This document shows, piece by piece, positions 40,089 to 47,141 of a stretch of 64,000 nt of DNA. The notes below the pieces were generated by a model, which worked only from the letters and a program-made list of their open reading frames with translations, ran no database searches and was not told the origin of the DNA. A program made the translations under genes and the position numbers. The stretch comes from Acidobacteria bacterium Mor1 (GTDB lineage: Bacteria > Acidobacteriota > Polarisedimenticolia > Polarisedimenticolales > Polarisedimenticolaceae). The stretch covers positions 683,325 through 747,324 of the forward strand of contig CP011806.1 in the NCBI GenBank assembly GCA_001664505.1. The letters are read 5' to 3'. How positions within the stretch are numbered: position 1 is the stretch's first letter; each line of letters starts with the position of its first letter.

Positions 40089-43000
40089 ATGAGTACGCCC
40101 CCGACGCCACAGGCGCCAAAGCGGCCCAAAGGGCCCGGAGCAAAACGCCCCCGCACCGGGCGGGCGCGGCGGTTGTTGCGTCGGCTGCTCTGGGGGGTCG
40201 CCGCGCTCCTGGTCGTTTGCCTTACCTCCCTGTTTCTGCTCAGAGACCGCCTCGACGGGTGGGTCCGGGACCGCATCCAGCACGAGATCGAGCAGGCGCT
40301 GCCCGACGCCCGGGTCTCCCTGGACCGGGTCGACATCGGATTCTACGGTCCACGGCTGGACTTTCATGGTTTCTCGCTGGAGTTGGACGGCCTGCCTGAC
40401 CGGATCTCTTTCGAGAAGGCCAGGATCCGGCCCAAGCTGAGCGGTTTTGGCGGCCTGCTGGCGCGGCGCATCCACCTCTCCGAGGTGACGATCCAACGAC
40501 CGGACGTCGTACTCACGGCCGAGGGCCTCGCGCGTCTGGGAGCGGGACCCTCCGAGGAGGGGAGCGAGCCCGCCGAGTTTCCCGATCTCAGGATTCGCCG
40601 CTTTGACGTGAGCCAGGGGGCCTTCACCTATGAAGACAGGAGCATCCCGCTCACCCTGGAACTGACGGACCTGGACCTGGATGCCCGGGGTCGGGTTCTG
40701 GCCGACGGCGGGCGGGGTGGCGTGCGCCTCTCGGCGACGGTGCTCCACAGCCCTATCGAGCGCCCGCTCCCGCTGAAGATCCGGGCCGAGCTCAACTACA
40801 GCGGCCAGCGCCTCCAGCTCAGCGGCCTCCACGCCGAGGGGGACGGGGTGCGGCTGGACGGCAACGCCGTACTGTTCCTCAGCGACCCGTTCCGGGTGCG
40901 TGGCGAAACCCAGGTGCAGGCGGACCTTGCGACCATCGCTCCCGTACTGGATGAAGCCTGGCGGGATCTGCGGGGACGGGTCGAGGGCCCGTTGAGTTGG
41001 TCCTATGCCGATGGTGAAGGCTTCCGGCTCGACGGAGAGCTGGTCGGTCAGCGGGTTCGCTACGGCGACCTCAGCGCCTCACGCCTCTCGACCCGTCTGG
41101 AAATCACACCCGGCCGCCTGCGTTTCGGCGAACTGGATCTCGACGCCTGGGACGGCTCCGTTCGGGGAGAACTGGAGCTGGCTCTCGACGGCCCGATCCG
41201 CTTCGAGGCGGACGTCGAGGGCCGGGGGCTCGATGCCCACAGCCTGGGGAGCCTGGCCGGCCTGCCGTTGCCCTTCGCCGCCCGGGCCGATGCCGTAGCC
41301 CGGCTGTCCGGCCTCGTCGACCGGAGGAGCACCTGGCGGGGTGGAGGCAGCGCGACCTTCCAGGGGGACCCGGACGATGCGCAGCCGATCCCACTGGACG
41401 GCGCTGGCGATTTCACCATCGTCGACGGAGTGCTGAGCGCCTCCGCGCCGGCGGTGCAGGCGGCGGGTGCTGCTCTCAGCTTCGGTCTCGAGGCGGATCT
41501 CGGCGGTGACGGCCGAGGCTGGGTCGAACTGGACGGCGAGACCAGCAACGCAGCCTCGACCCACCGGGCGACCCTGGCGGTACTCGAATCCCTGGATGTG
41601 GAAATCCCCGCCGACCTTCGCCGGCCGATCACCGGCCGCGGCCCGCTGGACGTGCGGGTGGGCTTCGGCGGCGAGCCGGACGCCGGCGGTGGCCGGGTCG
41701 ACCTCGGTCTCGAGTTCACGGCCGGCAGCCTGGACGGAACCGCCTTCGACCGGCTCTCACTGGATCTGGCCCTGGCCGGAGATCAACTCAAGATCGAGTC
41801 ACTCGACGCCGAGGCGCCGGACTGGCAGCTCCGGGGCGCGCTCTCCTACGACCTCTCCAACGATACGATCGAGCGGCTCGAAGGGGAGGCCGAGGAGGTC
41901 CAGCTTCCGGTCCTGCTGGGATTGATCCCCGAGGCGCCCGCGGTCGAGGGCACCCTCAGCGGCTCGTTGCTGCTTGCGGGCCCGTTGAACCGTCTGACCG
42001 GCGAGGGCCGGGTGGCGATTTCCGAGCTGCGCTGGGAGGGGGAGTACCTCGAACGCCTCGAGTCTCCGGTGCGGGTGCTCGATGGCGCCTGGACTCTCCC
42101 TGAGCTCACCGCCGCCGGACCTGCGATCCGCCTGGGCGGACAGGTGGCCTTCGCTCCCGACGGAGACCGGATCGAGATCGAGTTACGGGACACGTCGCTG
42201 CAGCTCGACGCCCTGAGCGCCCTCCAGGGTGCGGGGGTCGAAGGAACGTTGGATCTCGACGGCCGCCTGCAATTATCGGGGGGGAGCTCCACGGGAGAGA
42301 TCGGCGTCGAGGCGCGCGGCCTGATCGCCTCGGGGATCGATCTCGGCTCCGCCAGCGGCGTCATCCGCCCGGAGAGCGAGCGGGTCGTGGCCGAGCTCAA
42401 CGCACCCCGCCGCAGCGCCCGCGCCCAGGCCACCCTCGGCCTGGGAAGCGACCTGCCCCTGGAGGTCCAGGTGCAGCTGGACGGCAGCGACTTCGATCTG
42501 ATCGACCAGGATGGCTACGGCGGAGCCTGGGTCCGGCTCGACGGCGAACTGCGCTACGCCGCGGCACTCGGAGAGACCCGCCCGGCGGACCTGGCCGGCG
42601 TGTTCAGCGGTATCGAGCTCCACCTCGGCAGCCGTGTCTTGCGCAGCGGCGAACCCTGCCAGGCCCACCTGGACGGCGACCGCCTCTCGGTGGGTCCGAT
42701 GCGGCTCGAGGGGGACGGGACCGCCCTGGAGCTGGCGCTGCTCTACGAGTTCGGTAGCGCGGCCCTCGATGGTTACGGCCGTGGAAACCTCGACCTCGGG
42801 GCGGCGGCGGCGCTGGTTCCCGAGCTGCGCGCCGCAGGTCCCGTCGATGTGGATCTGCGCCTGAGCGGAACCGGAGAGGCGCCGAGACTCGACGGGTCCC
42901 TATCGCTCGAAGGGGGCAGGCTGCGGCTCCTCGGCTTCCCGCACACCCTCGAGCAAACCAGCGCCCGCATCGAGTTCGGAGGGGACACCGCGCGCCTCGA

Positions 43001-46000
43001 GCGGCTGGAAGGCATCCTCGGCAGCGGTGAAGTCACCGGGAGCGGCGAGGCGCGCCTGGAGGGCCTCGCCCTGGGTGACCACCGTTTCGAGCTCAGCGCC
43101 CGCTCGCTGCGGATCCGCTTCCCCGACGAGTTTCGCGGCATCTATGACGGCGAGTTGGTCCTGGGCGGCGACGCCGATCAGTCGACCCTGTCGGGAACCG
43201 TCAACGTGCTGCGAGGGATCTACAGCCAGGACTTCGAACTCTTCTCGCTCCTCGGGGTCGGAACCCGGGAGGTCGCGGCCAGCGATGAAGGATTGCTGCC
43301 CGACGTGGGCCTCGATATCCGGCTGGTGGCGCGAGACGGCATCTGGATGAAGAACGATCTGGCCGACGTCGAGTCCCGCTTCGACCTGCGGCTCGGCGGC
43401 GACCTGAACCGGCCCGAGCTGTCAGGCCGCCTGACCCTGCTCGAGGGTGGGGAGCTGCGTTTCCGGGATGTCGACTACACCATCACCTCGGGCAGTCTCG
43501 ACTTCGTCGAACTGGACAGCTGGCTGCCCGAGATCGAGATGCGCGCAGAGACGACCGTCCGCGAATACGCCGTCTTCCTGCGCATCTCCGGGACCGTCGA
43601 TCAGTTCGAGTACGAGTTGACCAGCTCACCGGATCTTTCTCAGCAGGACATCATCGCGCTGCTGACCACCGGAAAGACCATGCAGGAGTTGAGCGCCGAG
43701 TCGGGAGGTTCCGGCTTCACCGGCGATCTCGCCGCCAACTACTTCGCCGGTGCGCTGACCGGCACGTTCAGCAAACAGCTGCAGCGCCTGCTTGCCGTCG
43801 AGCGCCTGCGCATCGACCCGCTGCTGGCCCAGGAAGACGCCGAGCCGACCGCCCGGGTCACCATCGGAAAGGAGGTCGCCGACGACCTGTTCCTGATCTA
43901 TTCCACCGACATCGGTGCCGAGGAACGCCAGCTCTATCAGGTGGAGTGGCAGGCCTCGCGCAAGATGCGCGTGATCGCCGAGCGGGACGTCACCGGCGCG
44001 CTGGGAGGGGACGTGCGCTTCCGGGAGCGCTTCTGGTGGAAGCGCCCTGCCTCCGCACCCCGAGCAAAGAAGAAGTCCGGCGCGTCCGAAGCCGGCGCCG
44101 ACGGCAAAGAGACGGTGCAGGTCGCCTCGGTACGGTTCGAGGGCATCGGCGACGATGCGGCCGCCGAGCTGCGCAAGAAGCTGTCGATCGCCCGCGGCAC
44201 CCCTTACCGCCGCTCGGTGGCCATCGAAGGCGCCGAGGCAATCCGGCGCTACTACGCCGGGCAGGCGCGTATCGAGGCGGAGGTCGGCTGGCGGACCGAG
44301 GGGCCGGAGGACCGGCCGACGGTGGTCTACAGCATCGTGCCCGGGCGGGTGACCGAGGTCGTGCTGGCCGGCATCGACCGCAAGCATGAGAAGCGCATCC
44401 GCGAACTGCTCGAGGATCACTGGGTCGAATCGATCATCGGCGAGGACCTGCTCGACGATGCGGCGGAGATCATCCGGGACTACTTCCAGGAGCGCGGCTT
44501 CTACACCGTCGACGTCTCGGTCGACGAGACCCTGGACGACGGCCTGCATCGGGTCGAGTTCGTGATCGATACCGGCAAGACCGTGCGCATCCGGTCGGTC
44601 GAGATCGAGGGCGCCGAGGCCATCGACGAGGACCGGCTGCGCCGCCAGTTCCTTACCGGCCGCCGCACCCTGTTGCAGCGCTCGGCGATCCTGCCCCGGG
44701 TGTTGCGGGAGGACCTGGCCGCGCTGCGCACCCTGTACCGCAACGAGGGCTTTCTCGAGGTCCTGATCGACCAGCCGCGGGTGCGGCTCTCGGCGGAAGC
44801 GGACCGGGCCGACGTGACCATCCGCATCGAGGAAGGACCGCGGTTCTACATCAGGACCCTCGAGTTCGAGAACCCCGACGGGGAGCTGCCCTACAGCCGC
44901 GCAGAGCTTCTCGAGTGGTCCGGACTGGCGACCGGGAAGGTCTACTCTCCGCCGGAACTGCTCGAGGCCGAGAGCCGCCTACGCAGCGCTCTCGACAGCC
45001 GCGGCTATCCGACTGCCCGGGCACGGGGCCGGGTCGAACTGGGCGAGGCGGAGGCGCGCATTCGCTTCACCATCCGCCCCGGACAACAGCTGCGCATCCA
45101 GGAAGTCGCCCTGCGCGGCAACGACCTGACCAAGGACCGGATCATCAAGGGGGAACTCGAGCTCGAAGAGGGGGATCTGATTTCCCGGGACACCTTGCTG
45201 CGCAACCAACACCGTCTCTATCGCCTGGGGATCTTCCGCAGCGTCGACGTGGGCTACGAACCGGTCGACGGGGGAGAGCCGGGTCAACAGCGGGTGGTCG
45301 TCGACATCGAGGAGGCCCAGCCGCTGAGCCTGACCGTCGGTGCCGGTTTCGACAGCGAAGCCGGCCTGCGGGGCAATCTGGCCCTCAGTCACGACAACAT
45401 CGGCGGATGGGATCGCACCGCCGGTTTCCAGGCCAGCGTCAGTGACCTGCAGCGCCGCGGACAGGTCACCTTCGGCGAGCCCAGGCTGTTCGGCTTCGAT
45501 CTGCCGACCGTCGTCAGTCTCGGCCAATCGGATACCGAGGAGAACGACTTCACCGTCAAACGCCGCTCGGTCGGTGTCCGCATCGACCACCGGCTGTCGC
45601 CACGCTGGAACGCCTTCGGCCGCTACGCCTTCCAGCGAGTCGACCTACGAGACGTCGTCGATCCGCTCCGCGTGCAGGAAGAGAAGCTCGAAGATGTGGT
45701 GCTCGGGGACGTGAGTTACGGTCTGCTGCTCGACAGCCGGGACGATCCGTTCCTGCCGACCCAGGGACAGTACGCCACCATGGAGGTGCAGCTCTTCGCC
45801 GAACCCTTCGGCTCGGAGCAGGAGTTCCTCAAGGGCTTCTTCCAGAACACCTACACCCACACCTTCGGCAACGGGCACACCTTCGCCACCGCGATCCGCG
45901 TCGGCTTCGCCCGGCGGCTCGGGGCCACCACCCGGGTGCCGCTCTCCGAGCGTTTCTTCGCCGGGGGAGATTCCACCCTGCGCGGCTTCGACCGCGATAC

Positions 46001-46295
46001 CGTCGGTCCGCGGATCGGCGACGTCGCCGCCGGCGGCGAGGGGTTGCTGCTGCTCAACCAGGAGTGGCGCGTTCCGCTGTGGGGCCGCCTCAAGGGCGTG
46101 CTGTTCTACGACGCCGGCAACGTGTTCGACCGAGCAGGAGATATCGACCCCTTCGACCTGCGGCACGTGCTGGGCCTGGGGGTGCGTCTCGAGACGCCGA
46201 TCGGACCGCTGCGCCTCGAATACGGCAGCAAGCTCGACCGGGTAGGCGACGAGTCCCGGGGAGAGCTCTTCATCGCCATCGGATCGGCGTTCTAG
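40089..46295 (+). CDS. TamB (DUF490) - five POTRA - Omp85/BamA barrel single-chain fusion
   Basis: A 2068-residue protein. Residues 1-30 are basic, followed by one inner-membrane helix (about 32-53). Residues 54 to about 1095 are repetitive beta-rich AsmA/TamB-type segments. About 1097-1317 is the TamB C-terminal (DUF490) domain, with TSSPDLSQQDIIALLTTGKT and the ending RFWWKRP. A 25-residue Lys/Ala linker leads to five POTRA domains (starting near 1343, 1420, 1498, 1586 and 1668) and an Omp85 barrel from 1746 with the L6 signature LRGF at 1964 and a terminal Phe. In Proteobacteria TamA and TamB are separate proteins linking outer and inner membranes. The reading frame is continuous through the junction (about 44030-44115), with no stop or frameshift. 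Five POTRAs resemble BamA; TamA has three. The ATG at 40089 has only a weak ribosome site. Confidence 0.93.
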   Translation: MSTPPTPQAPKRPKGPGAKRPRTGRARRLLRRLLWGVAALLVVCLTSLFLLRDRLDGWVRDRIQHEIEQALPDARVSLDRVDIGFYGPRLDFHGFSLELDGLPDRISFEKARIRPKLSGFGGLLARRIHLSEVTIQRPDVVLTAEGLARLGAGPSEEGSEPAEFPDLRIRRFDVSQGAFTYEDRSIPLTLELTDLDLDARGRVLADGGRGGVRLSATVLHSPIERPLPLKIRAELNYSGQRLQLSGLHAEGDGVRLDGNAVLFLSDPFRVRGETQVQADLATIAPVLDEAWRDLRGRVEGPLSWSYADGEGFRLDGELVGQRVRYGDLSASRLSTRLEITPGRLRFGELDLDAWDGSVRGELELALDGPIRFEADVEGRGLDAHSLGSLAGLPLPFAARADAVARLSGLVDRRSTWRGGGSATFQGDPDDAQPIPLDGAGDFTIVDGVLSASAPAVQAAGAALSFGLEADLGGDGRGWVELDGETSNAASTHRATLAVLESLDVEIPADLRRPITGRGPLDVRVGFGGEPDAGGGRVDLGLEFTAGSLDGTAFDRLSLDLALAGDQLKIESLDAEAPDWQLRGALSYDLSNDTIERLEGEAEEVQLPVLLGLIPEAPAVEGTLSGSLLLAGPLNRLTGEGRVAISELRWEGEYLERLESPVRVLDGAWTLPELTAAGPAIRLGGQVAFAPDGDRIEIELRDTSLQLDALSALQGAGVEGTLDLDGRLQLSGGSSTGEIGVEARGLIASGIDLGSASGVIRPESERVVAELNAPRRSARAQATLGLGSDLPLEVQVQLDGSDFDLIDQDGYGGAWVRLDGELRYAAALGETRPADLAGVFSGIELHLGSRVLRSGEPCQAHLDGDRLSVGPMRLEGDGTALELALLYEFGSAALDGYGRGNLDLGAAAALVPELRAAGPVDVDLRLSGTGEAPRLDGSLSLEGGRLRLLGFPHTLEQTSARIEFGGDTARLERLEGILGSGEVTGSGEARLEGLALGDHRFELSARSLRIRFPDEFRGIYDGELVLGGDADQSTLSGTVNVLRGIYSQDFELFSLLGVGTREVAASDEGLLPDVGLDIRLVARDGIWMKNDLADVESRFDLRLGGDLNRPELSGRLTLLEGGELRFRDVDYTITSGSLDFVELDSWLPEIEMRAETTVREYAVFLRISGTVDQFEYELTSSPDLSQQDIIALLTTGKTMQELSAESGGSGFTGDLAANYFAGALTGTFSKQLQRLLAVERLRIDPLLAQEDAEPTARVTIGKEVADDLFLIYSTDIGAEERQLYQVEWQASRKMRVIAERDVTGALGGDVRFRERFWWKRPASAPRAKKKSGASEAGADGKETVQVASVRFEGIGDDAAAELRKKLSIARGTPYRRSVAIEGAEAIRRYYAGQARIEAEVGWRTEGPEDRPTVVYSIVPGRVTEVVLAGIDRKHEKRIRELLEDHWVESIIGEDLLDDAAEIIRDYFQERGFYTVDVSVDETLDDGLHRVEFVIDTGKTVRIRSVEIEGAEAIDEDRLRRQFLTGRRTLLQRSAILPRVLREDLAALRTLYRNEGFLEVLIDQPRVRLSAEADRADVTIRIEEGPRFYIRTLEFENPDGELPYSRAELLEWSGLATGKVYSPPELLEAESRLRSALDSRGYPTARARGRVELGEAEARIRFTIRPGQQLRIQEVALRGNDLTKDRIIKGELELEEGDLISRDTLLRNQHRLYRLGIFRSVDVGYEPVDGGEPGQQRVVVDIEEAQPLSLTVGAGFDSEAGLRGNLALSHDNIGGWDRTAGFQASVSDLQRRGQVTFGEPRLFGFDLPTVVSLGQSDTEENDFTVKRRSVGVRIDHRLSPRWNAFGRYAFQRVDLRDVVDPLRVQEEKLEDVVLGDVSYGLLLDSRDDPFLPTQGQYATMEVQLFAEPFGSEQEFLKGFFQNTYTHTFGNGHTFATAIRVGFARRLGATTRVPLSERFFAGGDSTLRGFDRDTVGPRIGDVAAGGEGLLLLNQEWRVPLWGRLKGVLFYDAGNVFDRAGDIDPFDLRHVLGLGVRLETPIGPLRLEYGSKLDRVGDESRGELFIAIGSAF

Positions 46296-46310: not shown

Positions 46311-46362
46311 AGAAAAAGGAGAGCCCGCAGCCGCCGAGGGGGGATTCGACGAAAGCGGGCTC
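46311..46362 (-). terminator. Intrinsic terminator of the sigma region-4 gene
   Basis: Read on the minus strand: GAGCCCGC, 26-nt loop, GCGGGCTC (8-bp perfect stem, 46362-46355 and 46328-46321) followed by TCCTTTTT. The A-run on the plus strand means it is not an intrinsic terminator for the fusion gene. Confidence 0.7.
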
Positions 46363-46414: not shown

Positions 46415-46774
46415 TTAGACGAGGGAGAAGCGAACCTGCCCTTGGTACTGCTGGAGAATCTCCCGCAGCTTGCGTTTGGCATCGCGCTCCAGTTGGCGCA
46501 CCCGCTCGCGGCTCAGGCCGAGGCTCTTGCCGATCTCCTCGAGGGTCAACTCCTTGCCGCCCAGAAGACCGAAACGATTGCGGATGATGTGGCGCTCGCG
46601 CTCATCCAGGGAGACCAACGCCTCACGCACCAGGCTGCGAACTTCCTGGCCGTAGATGCGGTCTTCCTGACTCGCCGTGGATTTGTCTGCGAGCAGCGCC
46701 GAGAGGCGACACCCTTCATCGTGATCCACGAACTCATCGATCGAACGCTCTTTCATCAAAAGCGGAATGAGCAT
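46415..46774 (-). CDS. Stand-alone sigma-70 region 4 protein
   Basis: A 119-residue protein matching only the end of a sigma-70/sigma-32 factor: an acidic region-3.2-like segment (HDEGCRLSALLADKSTASQEDRIYGQ), region 4.1 (SLDERERHIIRNRFGLLGG) and region 4.2 with the helix-turn-helix TLEEIGKSLGLSRERVRQLERDAKRKLREIL. Region 4.2 normally contacts the -35 box; regions 2 and 3 are absent. Searching the three minus-strand frames upstream (46775 to about 47000) shows no sigma region 2, so this does not look like a frameshifted full sigma. The ATG at 46774 has GGAGGTTCG before it, a strong ribosome site. It has its own terminator. It could be a -35-binding regulator or a two-part sigma subunit. Confidence 0.85.
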   Translation of the reverse strand: MLIPLLMKERSIDEFVDHDEGCRLSALLADKSTASQEDRIYGQEVRSLVREALVSLDERERHIIRNRFGLLGGKELTLEEIGKSLGLSRERVRQLERDAKRKLREILQQYQGQVRFSLV

Positions 46775-47141
46775 CGAACCTCCAGTTCCCCTCGCGCCAT
46801 GTACAACGCAACTCCCGTGCCGGGAATTCCGAGCCGGGCCCGAGAGCCGGTTCGCCGCGGATTTCGTGCAGCATTCCCCGTTTTTCGCCTGTTTTTGCCA
46901 CTGTTTCGTCCGTTTTGAGAGACACCTGCGTACCCTACTGATTCCATAGGGTTTACAGGGTTAGGCCGTTCCGGCCCCGGCGGATGCCGGTCTGACATCC
47001 CGAAGCGGCACGGCCGCGCAAAAATGGCGCGCCGGCGCCCTCCGTTTCCTGCAGCATTCGCGATGCTAGAATCGCGTCCTTCCCCCGGGTTCAGGGGTTA
47101 TCCCGGGCGGCCGCGCCCATCTCACGTTCGGAGCTCCATCC
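46775..47141. other. Divergent intergenic region with phased A-tracts and inverted repeat
   Basis: A 367-nt gap between the sigma region-4 gene (minus) and mutL (plus). It contains four T-runs at 46881-46885, 46892-46896, 46903-46905 and 46913-46916 whose centres are about 10-11 bp apart, a pattern that bends DNA. An inverted repeat ACCCTA-N9-TAGGGT lies at 46932-46952. The mutL-side extended -10 is at 47064-47072. I see no further gene. Confidence 0.65.
47064..47072 (+). promoter_or_regulatory. Extended -10 element upstream of mutL
   Basis: TGC-TAGAAT (hexamer 47067-47072), about 70 nt before the mutL TTG. No clear -35. Confidence 0.45.

Follow-up and report, generated by a model that had tools for sequence, protein, structure and literature searches.

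A stand-alone sigma region 3.2-4 protein with a sigma54-type promoter in Polarisedimenticolia and a candidate partner that ends at region 3.1

Few cellular sigma factors consist of more than one protein, and SigO-RsoA (YvrI-YvrHa) of Bacillus subtilis is the one that our literature search for split or region-4-only sigmas found; the search found no such system in Acidobacteriota and no paper combining Polarisedimenticolia and sigma factor. SigO-RsoA is described as a two-subunit sigma in which one protein carries region 2 and another region 4, and the two cooperate at one promoter (PMC8103513, PMC10028694, PMC10141391). The subunits are encoded together in the sigO-rsoA operon and are hard to place in the sigma groups; the same sources disagree on the regions carried by each. 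Phage T4 possesses a sigma split in trans: gp55 is homologous to region 2, whereas the tip of the beta-flap is clamped by gp33 in the manner of region 4 (PMC7892883). In the sigma54-sigmaS cascade of Borrelia, the gene of a sigma70-family subunit is under sigma54 and an enhancer-binding protein (PMC11109971). A survey of cyanobacterial sigmas records single-domain r2 or r4 proteins as domain architectures, and it states that cyanobacteria have no sigma54 (PMC11119718). Here, we analyzed a 64,000-nucleotide stretch (the window; C1:683325-747324) of the complete 5.985-Mb genome of Acidobacteria bacterium Mor1 (G000). We describe a minus-strand gene in the window for a stand-alone sigma region 3.2-4 protein, hereafter the orphan.

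Elsewhere in the same genome, a second protein (the N-half) carries regions 1.2-3.1. We consider it about an even chance that the orphan is a trans-acting module induced by sigma54, which in family f1 would form a two-subunit sigma factor with the N-half (labels f1-f12 denote the grouping of relatives used in our genome searches). As in the published accounts of SigO-RsoA, region 2 and region 4 are on separate proteins; here, the two may likewise cooperate. Unlike in those accounts, the present halves are unlinked and group-2/RpoS-like, the break is at the 3.1/3.2 boundary and the promoters are of the sigma54 type. The Borrelia cascade, as described, controls a full RpoS, whereas separate partial sigmas would be controlled here. 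The passages of the cyanobacterial survey on r4-only proteins mention neither sigma54 control nor a complementary half, unlike the orphan. Among known systems, SigO-RsoA and T4 gp55/gp33 come closest to such a two-piece sigma in the way they work.

The first-pass annotation of the window had described a 119-residue protein of region 3.2-like and region 4 sequence, and the database searches agree with this description. Pfam assigned Sigma70_r4 to residues 52-105 (1.2e-18); it gave no Sigma70_r2 match, and r3 matched only below the cut-off, at the helix-turn-helix. In NCBIfam, residues 7-109 align to the C-terminal end of RpoS/RpoD models, and a PDB search matched orphan profile positions 8-110 with regions 3.2 and 4 in chains of RpoS, SigB and SigA. 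An AlphaFold2 model built from five sequences contains the sigma4 helices, with predicted local distance difference test (pLDDT) values of 73-94 by block at residues 41-110; residues 1-32 (pLDDT <50) are too uncertain to interpret. The top Foldseek matches of this model were sigma chains. Sigma regions 2 and 3 had been reported as missing upstream, and this was also the case here: the frame upstream of the orphan is open for just 62 codons without sigma sequence, and among the 80 matches listed the hidden Markov model (HMM) of regions 1.2-3.1 had none in the orphan locus (L001). Thus, the orphan resembles group 1/2 sigmas (RpoD, RpoS) in the sequence and fold of regions 3.2-4 and differs from them in having no regions 1.2-3.1; regions 2 and 4 in a single chain, as in a full group 1/2 sigma, were not found. 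The ribosome-binding site and the terminator that had been noted were both confirmed (Table 1). In the RNA fold of the terminator, a GAGCCCGC/GCGGGCTC stem is followed by TCCTTTTT, and the local hairpin has -28.6 kcal/mol. The folding of the whole 123-nt stretch is unexceptional for its composition (z = -1.54), and the consensus scan did not list the terminator because the loop is too long for the scan.

The recognition helix of the orphan is SRERVRQLE. It retains R, E, R and Q, which we take to be the residues that contact the -35 element, and in the orthologues read the -35 recognition helix is strictly kept as SRERVRQ or SKERVRQ. Within the finger stretch, E9, S11, D13, D17 and D30 are invariant (21/21 aligned rows). 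From the canonical residues of its -35 helix and the conservation of its finger, we argue that the orphan acts on RNA polymerase at promoters. Phage gp33 is described as a mimic of sigma4 that binds the flap but does not itself bind DNA, whereas a canonical -35 helix and the finger are both retained in the orphan; the helix residues would speak against a gp33-type coactivator. A complete region 4 helix-turn-helix with the conserved R-E-R-Q would also suit a small autonomous regulator, which activates or represses from TTGACA-like sites without replacing any sigma domain. However, the invariant finger residues lie outside the DNA-contact helix, and isolated region 4 binds DNA poorly. We therefore regard an autonomous regulator as improbable.

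The orphan is widespread in the class. Relatives that bear names are Acidobacteriota, for example Candidatus Polarisedimenticola svalbardensis (L038). A profile search of 41 class genomes gave 35 stand-alone rows in 33 genomes, each matching from profile position 1-3, and the remaining rows were full-length sigmas. The orphans of the 33 genomes are 117-119 aa long; that of L018 starts with GTG, and that of L027 reaches the contig end at residue 118. The first-pass annotation had proposed a search for homologues of similar length and had named homologues that are all full-length sigmas as the sign of a local truncation; such a pattern was not observed. The orphan was not found in 8/41 genomes (G008, G025, G038, G039 and the four genomes of f9, f10 and f11), several of which are incomplete. 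Among 396 genomes of the phylum (scoring covered the 11 best candidates, except in one row shown), 35 had matches at E <= 1e-27; all of these lie within the class, and some have full-length sigmas alone; none of the 355 Acidobacteriota genomes sampled outside the class had a match at this level. In the region-4 tree, all orphans group in a single clade (93/93) next to the RpoS-like sigmas; L018, which is labelled 'full' inside this clade, is the GTG-started orphan. Substitutions between orthologues are concentrated at third codon positions (27/19/63 at positions 1/2/3, L001 vs L015). Judged from these sequences, the orphan is conserved and has been inherited vertically; it is a sigma region 3.2-4 module passed on as a free-standing gene through much of a class.

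Because of this conservation, local truncation or decay of a full sigma factor was ruled out. Apart from the short length, nothing points to a pseudogene, and we assign it practically no probability: start and length are the same in 33/41 genomes, change is biased to third positions, and all 32 principal copies have a promoter box of their own. The position of the clade bears on another explanation. Anti-sigma factors that bind region 4 are a known mechanism, and since the closest full-length region 4 is that of the RpoS-like group, the orphan might be a decoy that frees a group-2 sigma. However, a decoy would have no need of the -35 helix residues, and no anti-sigma candidate turned up, although none was searched for; we consider a decoy very unlikely. 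Divergent copies of the orphan occur in f5 (L034, L035 and L036), as a second copy in G035 and G037 and as the sole copy in G021.

Beyond the first-pass annotation, we observed a sigma54-type promoter upstream of the orphan gene. Boxes in the 160 nt before each ATG were scored as matches to TGGCACGNNNNTTGCW, which we take to be the sigma54 -24/-12 consensus, with GG and GC required. A box with 10-12 of 12 matches is present in all 32 principal copies (one set of 29 and another of 3), at 40-60 nt from the ATG with one exception at 107; G021 was left out of these because only a divergent copy is present. The divergent copies L034-L036 have boxes of 8, 6 and none, so that 0/3 reach 10/12. As background, a box of at least 10/12 was found in 26/3400 dinucleotide shuffles and in 2/798 window tiles. 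Farther upstream are conserved palindromes of the form YGCCA-N-GGCR, which resemble NtrC-type sites. Relatives of the CGCGCCATTTTTGCGCG palindrome also precede the N-half gene and are found in orthologues of f5. The rpoN gene is present in 38/41 class genomes including G000 (G000:C1:789031-789510, E 1.5e-62). Transcription of the orphan gene thus probably depends on sigma54 RNA polymerase and is controlled by an enhancer-binding protein. None of 30 sigma loci of G000, the N-half included, has a box of at least 10/12. Among full-length sigmas elsewhere, L207 reaches 11/12, and two RpoD loci score 11 and 10, with the boxes positioned at -197 and -98 relative to the frame start; therefore, chance boxes occur. 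L207 (G004:C115:136200-136880) is a group-2-like sigma of full length whose region 4 is divergent; it has a sigma54-type box, TGGCACACTCGTTGCT, near the frame start and is possibly another sigma54-controlled sigma.

A partner without region 4 elsewhere in the genome, for which a search had been suggested, was also found. G000 has 75 region-2 matches, and 74 of them have a region-4 match on the same strand within 900 nt downstream. The single exception (C1:4350936-4351148) belongs to the N-half, whose C-terminus is ...KAIAKLFGPSGGE. N-halves cut at the same boundary are present in five of the six f1 genomes (G000, G001, G003, G004 and G005; loci L108, L109, L113, L114 and L203), and a further one, the start of which lies beyond the contig edge, is in G012 of f6. 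These six form one clade (94/88) within the group-2 lineage, and all stop directly after region 3.1. When the two profiles are aligned to full-length sigmas, N-half position 258-259 coincides with, or is adjacent to, the residue matched by orphan position 7-9; the N-half profile ends and the orphan profile starts at 301/302 in L115 and at 200/201 in L168. It should be mentioned that this break point was taken from HMM coordinates, and that an alignment of a cousin, the N-half and the orphan scattered the first residues of the orphan. The N-half retains the WW, Q, T and H/E residues, presumably the sigma70 contacts to -10 and extended -10 elements. Between N-halves, changes are again in excess at third codon positions (80/56/134 for L108 vs L109; 18/14/86 for L114 vs L203, which are closely related). 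Each of the five N-half genes of f1 is preceded by a sigma54-like box no more than about 55 nt from the ATG. These boxes have 11, 10, 10, 9 and 8 of 12 matches, two of them being degenerate; 0, 1, 1, 4 and 24 of 1000 shuffles (70 nt) do as well. The sole exact TGCGCCANNNTGGCGCA in the 6-Mb G000 genome lies 126-110 nt upstream of the N-half gene. Two RpoD-like frames without region 4, G037:C1:2458607 (L157, 485 aa) and G039:C47:2480 (L175, 494 aa), were dropped before the N-halves were counted; in our judgement, they are probably assembly frameshifts.

Both proteins, their complementary break, the sigma54-type boxes, the conservation and rpoN are present, and from them we infer sigma54 transcription, binding of the halves to each other or to core enzyme, and a promoter class. 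In the proposed mechanism, region 4 of the orphan would bind the beta-flap and read the -35 element, and region 3.2 would enter the active-site channel. In f1, the orphan would supply these functions to the N-half, which by its retained sequence features would bring core binding and -10 recognition. The two-subunit sigma would then act downstream of sigma54 and be produced whenever sigma54 is active. Where no N-half was detected, as in most orphan-bearing genomes, the orphan would have to act with a resident sigma, holoenzyme or polymerase. The two roles proposed in the first-pass annotation, a change in the promoter choice of a full sigma and autonomous action at -35 elements, may apply above all to such genomes. 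A wider reading, which we hold tentatively and at somewhat less than even probability, is that the class uses an interchangeable region 3.2-4 cassette, commanded by sigma54, as a separate polymerase subunit. In f1, a second sigma54-commanded protein of a different lineage would have given up its own region 3.2-4 and would depend on the cassette. The result would be a two-piece sigma that was assembled, not split, and a cascade from sigma54 to a sigma70-type factor with AND logic.

Several observations weigh against such a pair. The two loci are unlinked (G000:C1 729742 vs 4350771). The N-half is found in at least 6/41 class genomes as compared with 33/41 for the orphan, and given the latter number the presence of an orphan in 6/6 N-half genomes is not significant. 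In the orphan-bearing genomes G007 (f3), G014 (f8) and G018 (f5), reading 79 of the 80 region-2 places through to the stop codon revealed no N-half; the shortest of the 79 is a broken ECF frame, and one place below the cut-off was left out. The remaining class genomes were checked less fully (40 places and further loci read), and the count there is among the matches listed, so that absence of the N-half carries less weight in them. On this evidence, the orphan would have an older role independent of this N-half. The box of the N-half of G000 itself is the weakest, at 8/12. No other gene with a convincing enhancer and sigma54 box was seen among the 15 examined of the 42 genome-wide sites that match the enhancer pattern with up to 2 mismatches (24 for the reversed pattern); therefore, no regulon can be claimed. 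The halves are of different sigma lineages in the region-4 and region-2 trees, which have few columns and long branches, and because of this placement an origin by splitting of one gene was rejected. Extended -10 promoters could also suffice for a sigma that lacks region 4.

The distribution of the orphan is also accounted for by a flap competitor. Induced by sigma54, it would occupy the beta-flap/-35 slot and weaken region 4 of resident sigma70-type holoenzymes, with a shift to sigma54 or extended -10 promoters. This would explain the orphan in many genomes without a detected N-half as well as the sigma54-type promoter, and the region 4 fold is complete. However, a pure flap blocker would not need a strictly kept -35 recognition helix, and the co-existing N-half in f1 would be unexplained. 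We consider this explanation unlikely, yet the likeliest of the alternatives. If the orphan and the N-half do form one sigma, the pair would give a two-input promoter switch. Because the break falls naturally at the 3.1/3.2 boundary and both genes have promoters of the sigma54 type, the pair makes the supply of regions 3.2-4 in trans directly testable.

Table 1. Coordinates of the orphan gene, its signals and the N-half gene. Positions are those of the window unless a contig is given.
Feature	Position	Strand	Remarks
Stand-alone sigma region 3.2 (residues ~8-35) and region 4 (52-105) protein, 119 aa, ATG start	46415..46774	-	Open reading frame, Pfam, homologues, PDB alignment
Ribosome-binding site, GGAGG	46779..46783	-	
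Intrinsic terminator hairpin and T-rich tail	46311..46362	-	RNA folding
Sigma54-type -24/-12 promoter element, CGGCACGGGAGTTGCG	46807..46822	-	10/12 consensus positions; same box type in 32/32 principal orthologues
Putative second enhancer site, TGTCAGACCGGCA	46985..46997	-	Aligned in most f1-f3 orthologues; function inferred
Putative enhancer-binding protein site, CGCGCCATTTTTGCGCG	47015..47031	-	Aligned in 9/9 f1-f3 orthologues; function inferred
N-half, regions 1.2-3.1, 257 aa	G000:C1:4350771-4351541	-	Region-2 match without region 4

Phage contigs from IMG/VR (L322, L328, L330, L333, L336, L338 and L390-L396) encode stand-alone sigma region 3.2-4 proteins of their own, of ~130 aa. A search with the A2 HMM that covered up to 10 kb of flank on each side detected no region-2 protein.

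The neighbors of the orphan gene are mutL (divergent) and a TamB-Omp85 fusion gene (convergent). A mutL match adjoins the orphan in f1-f5 and f7 loci, and none was found beside it in the f8/f12 loci examined. The fusion gene (window 40089-46295, plus strand) is a 2068-aa open reading frame in which a TamB domain, POTRA repeats and an Omp85 barrel lie in a single frame, as a TamA-TamB-like fusion. Continuous tblastn matches to it extend from residues ~776 to 2068 in L038 and L040 and 837-2068 in L039.
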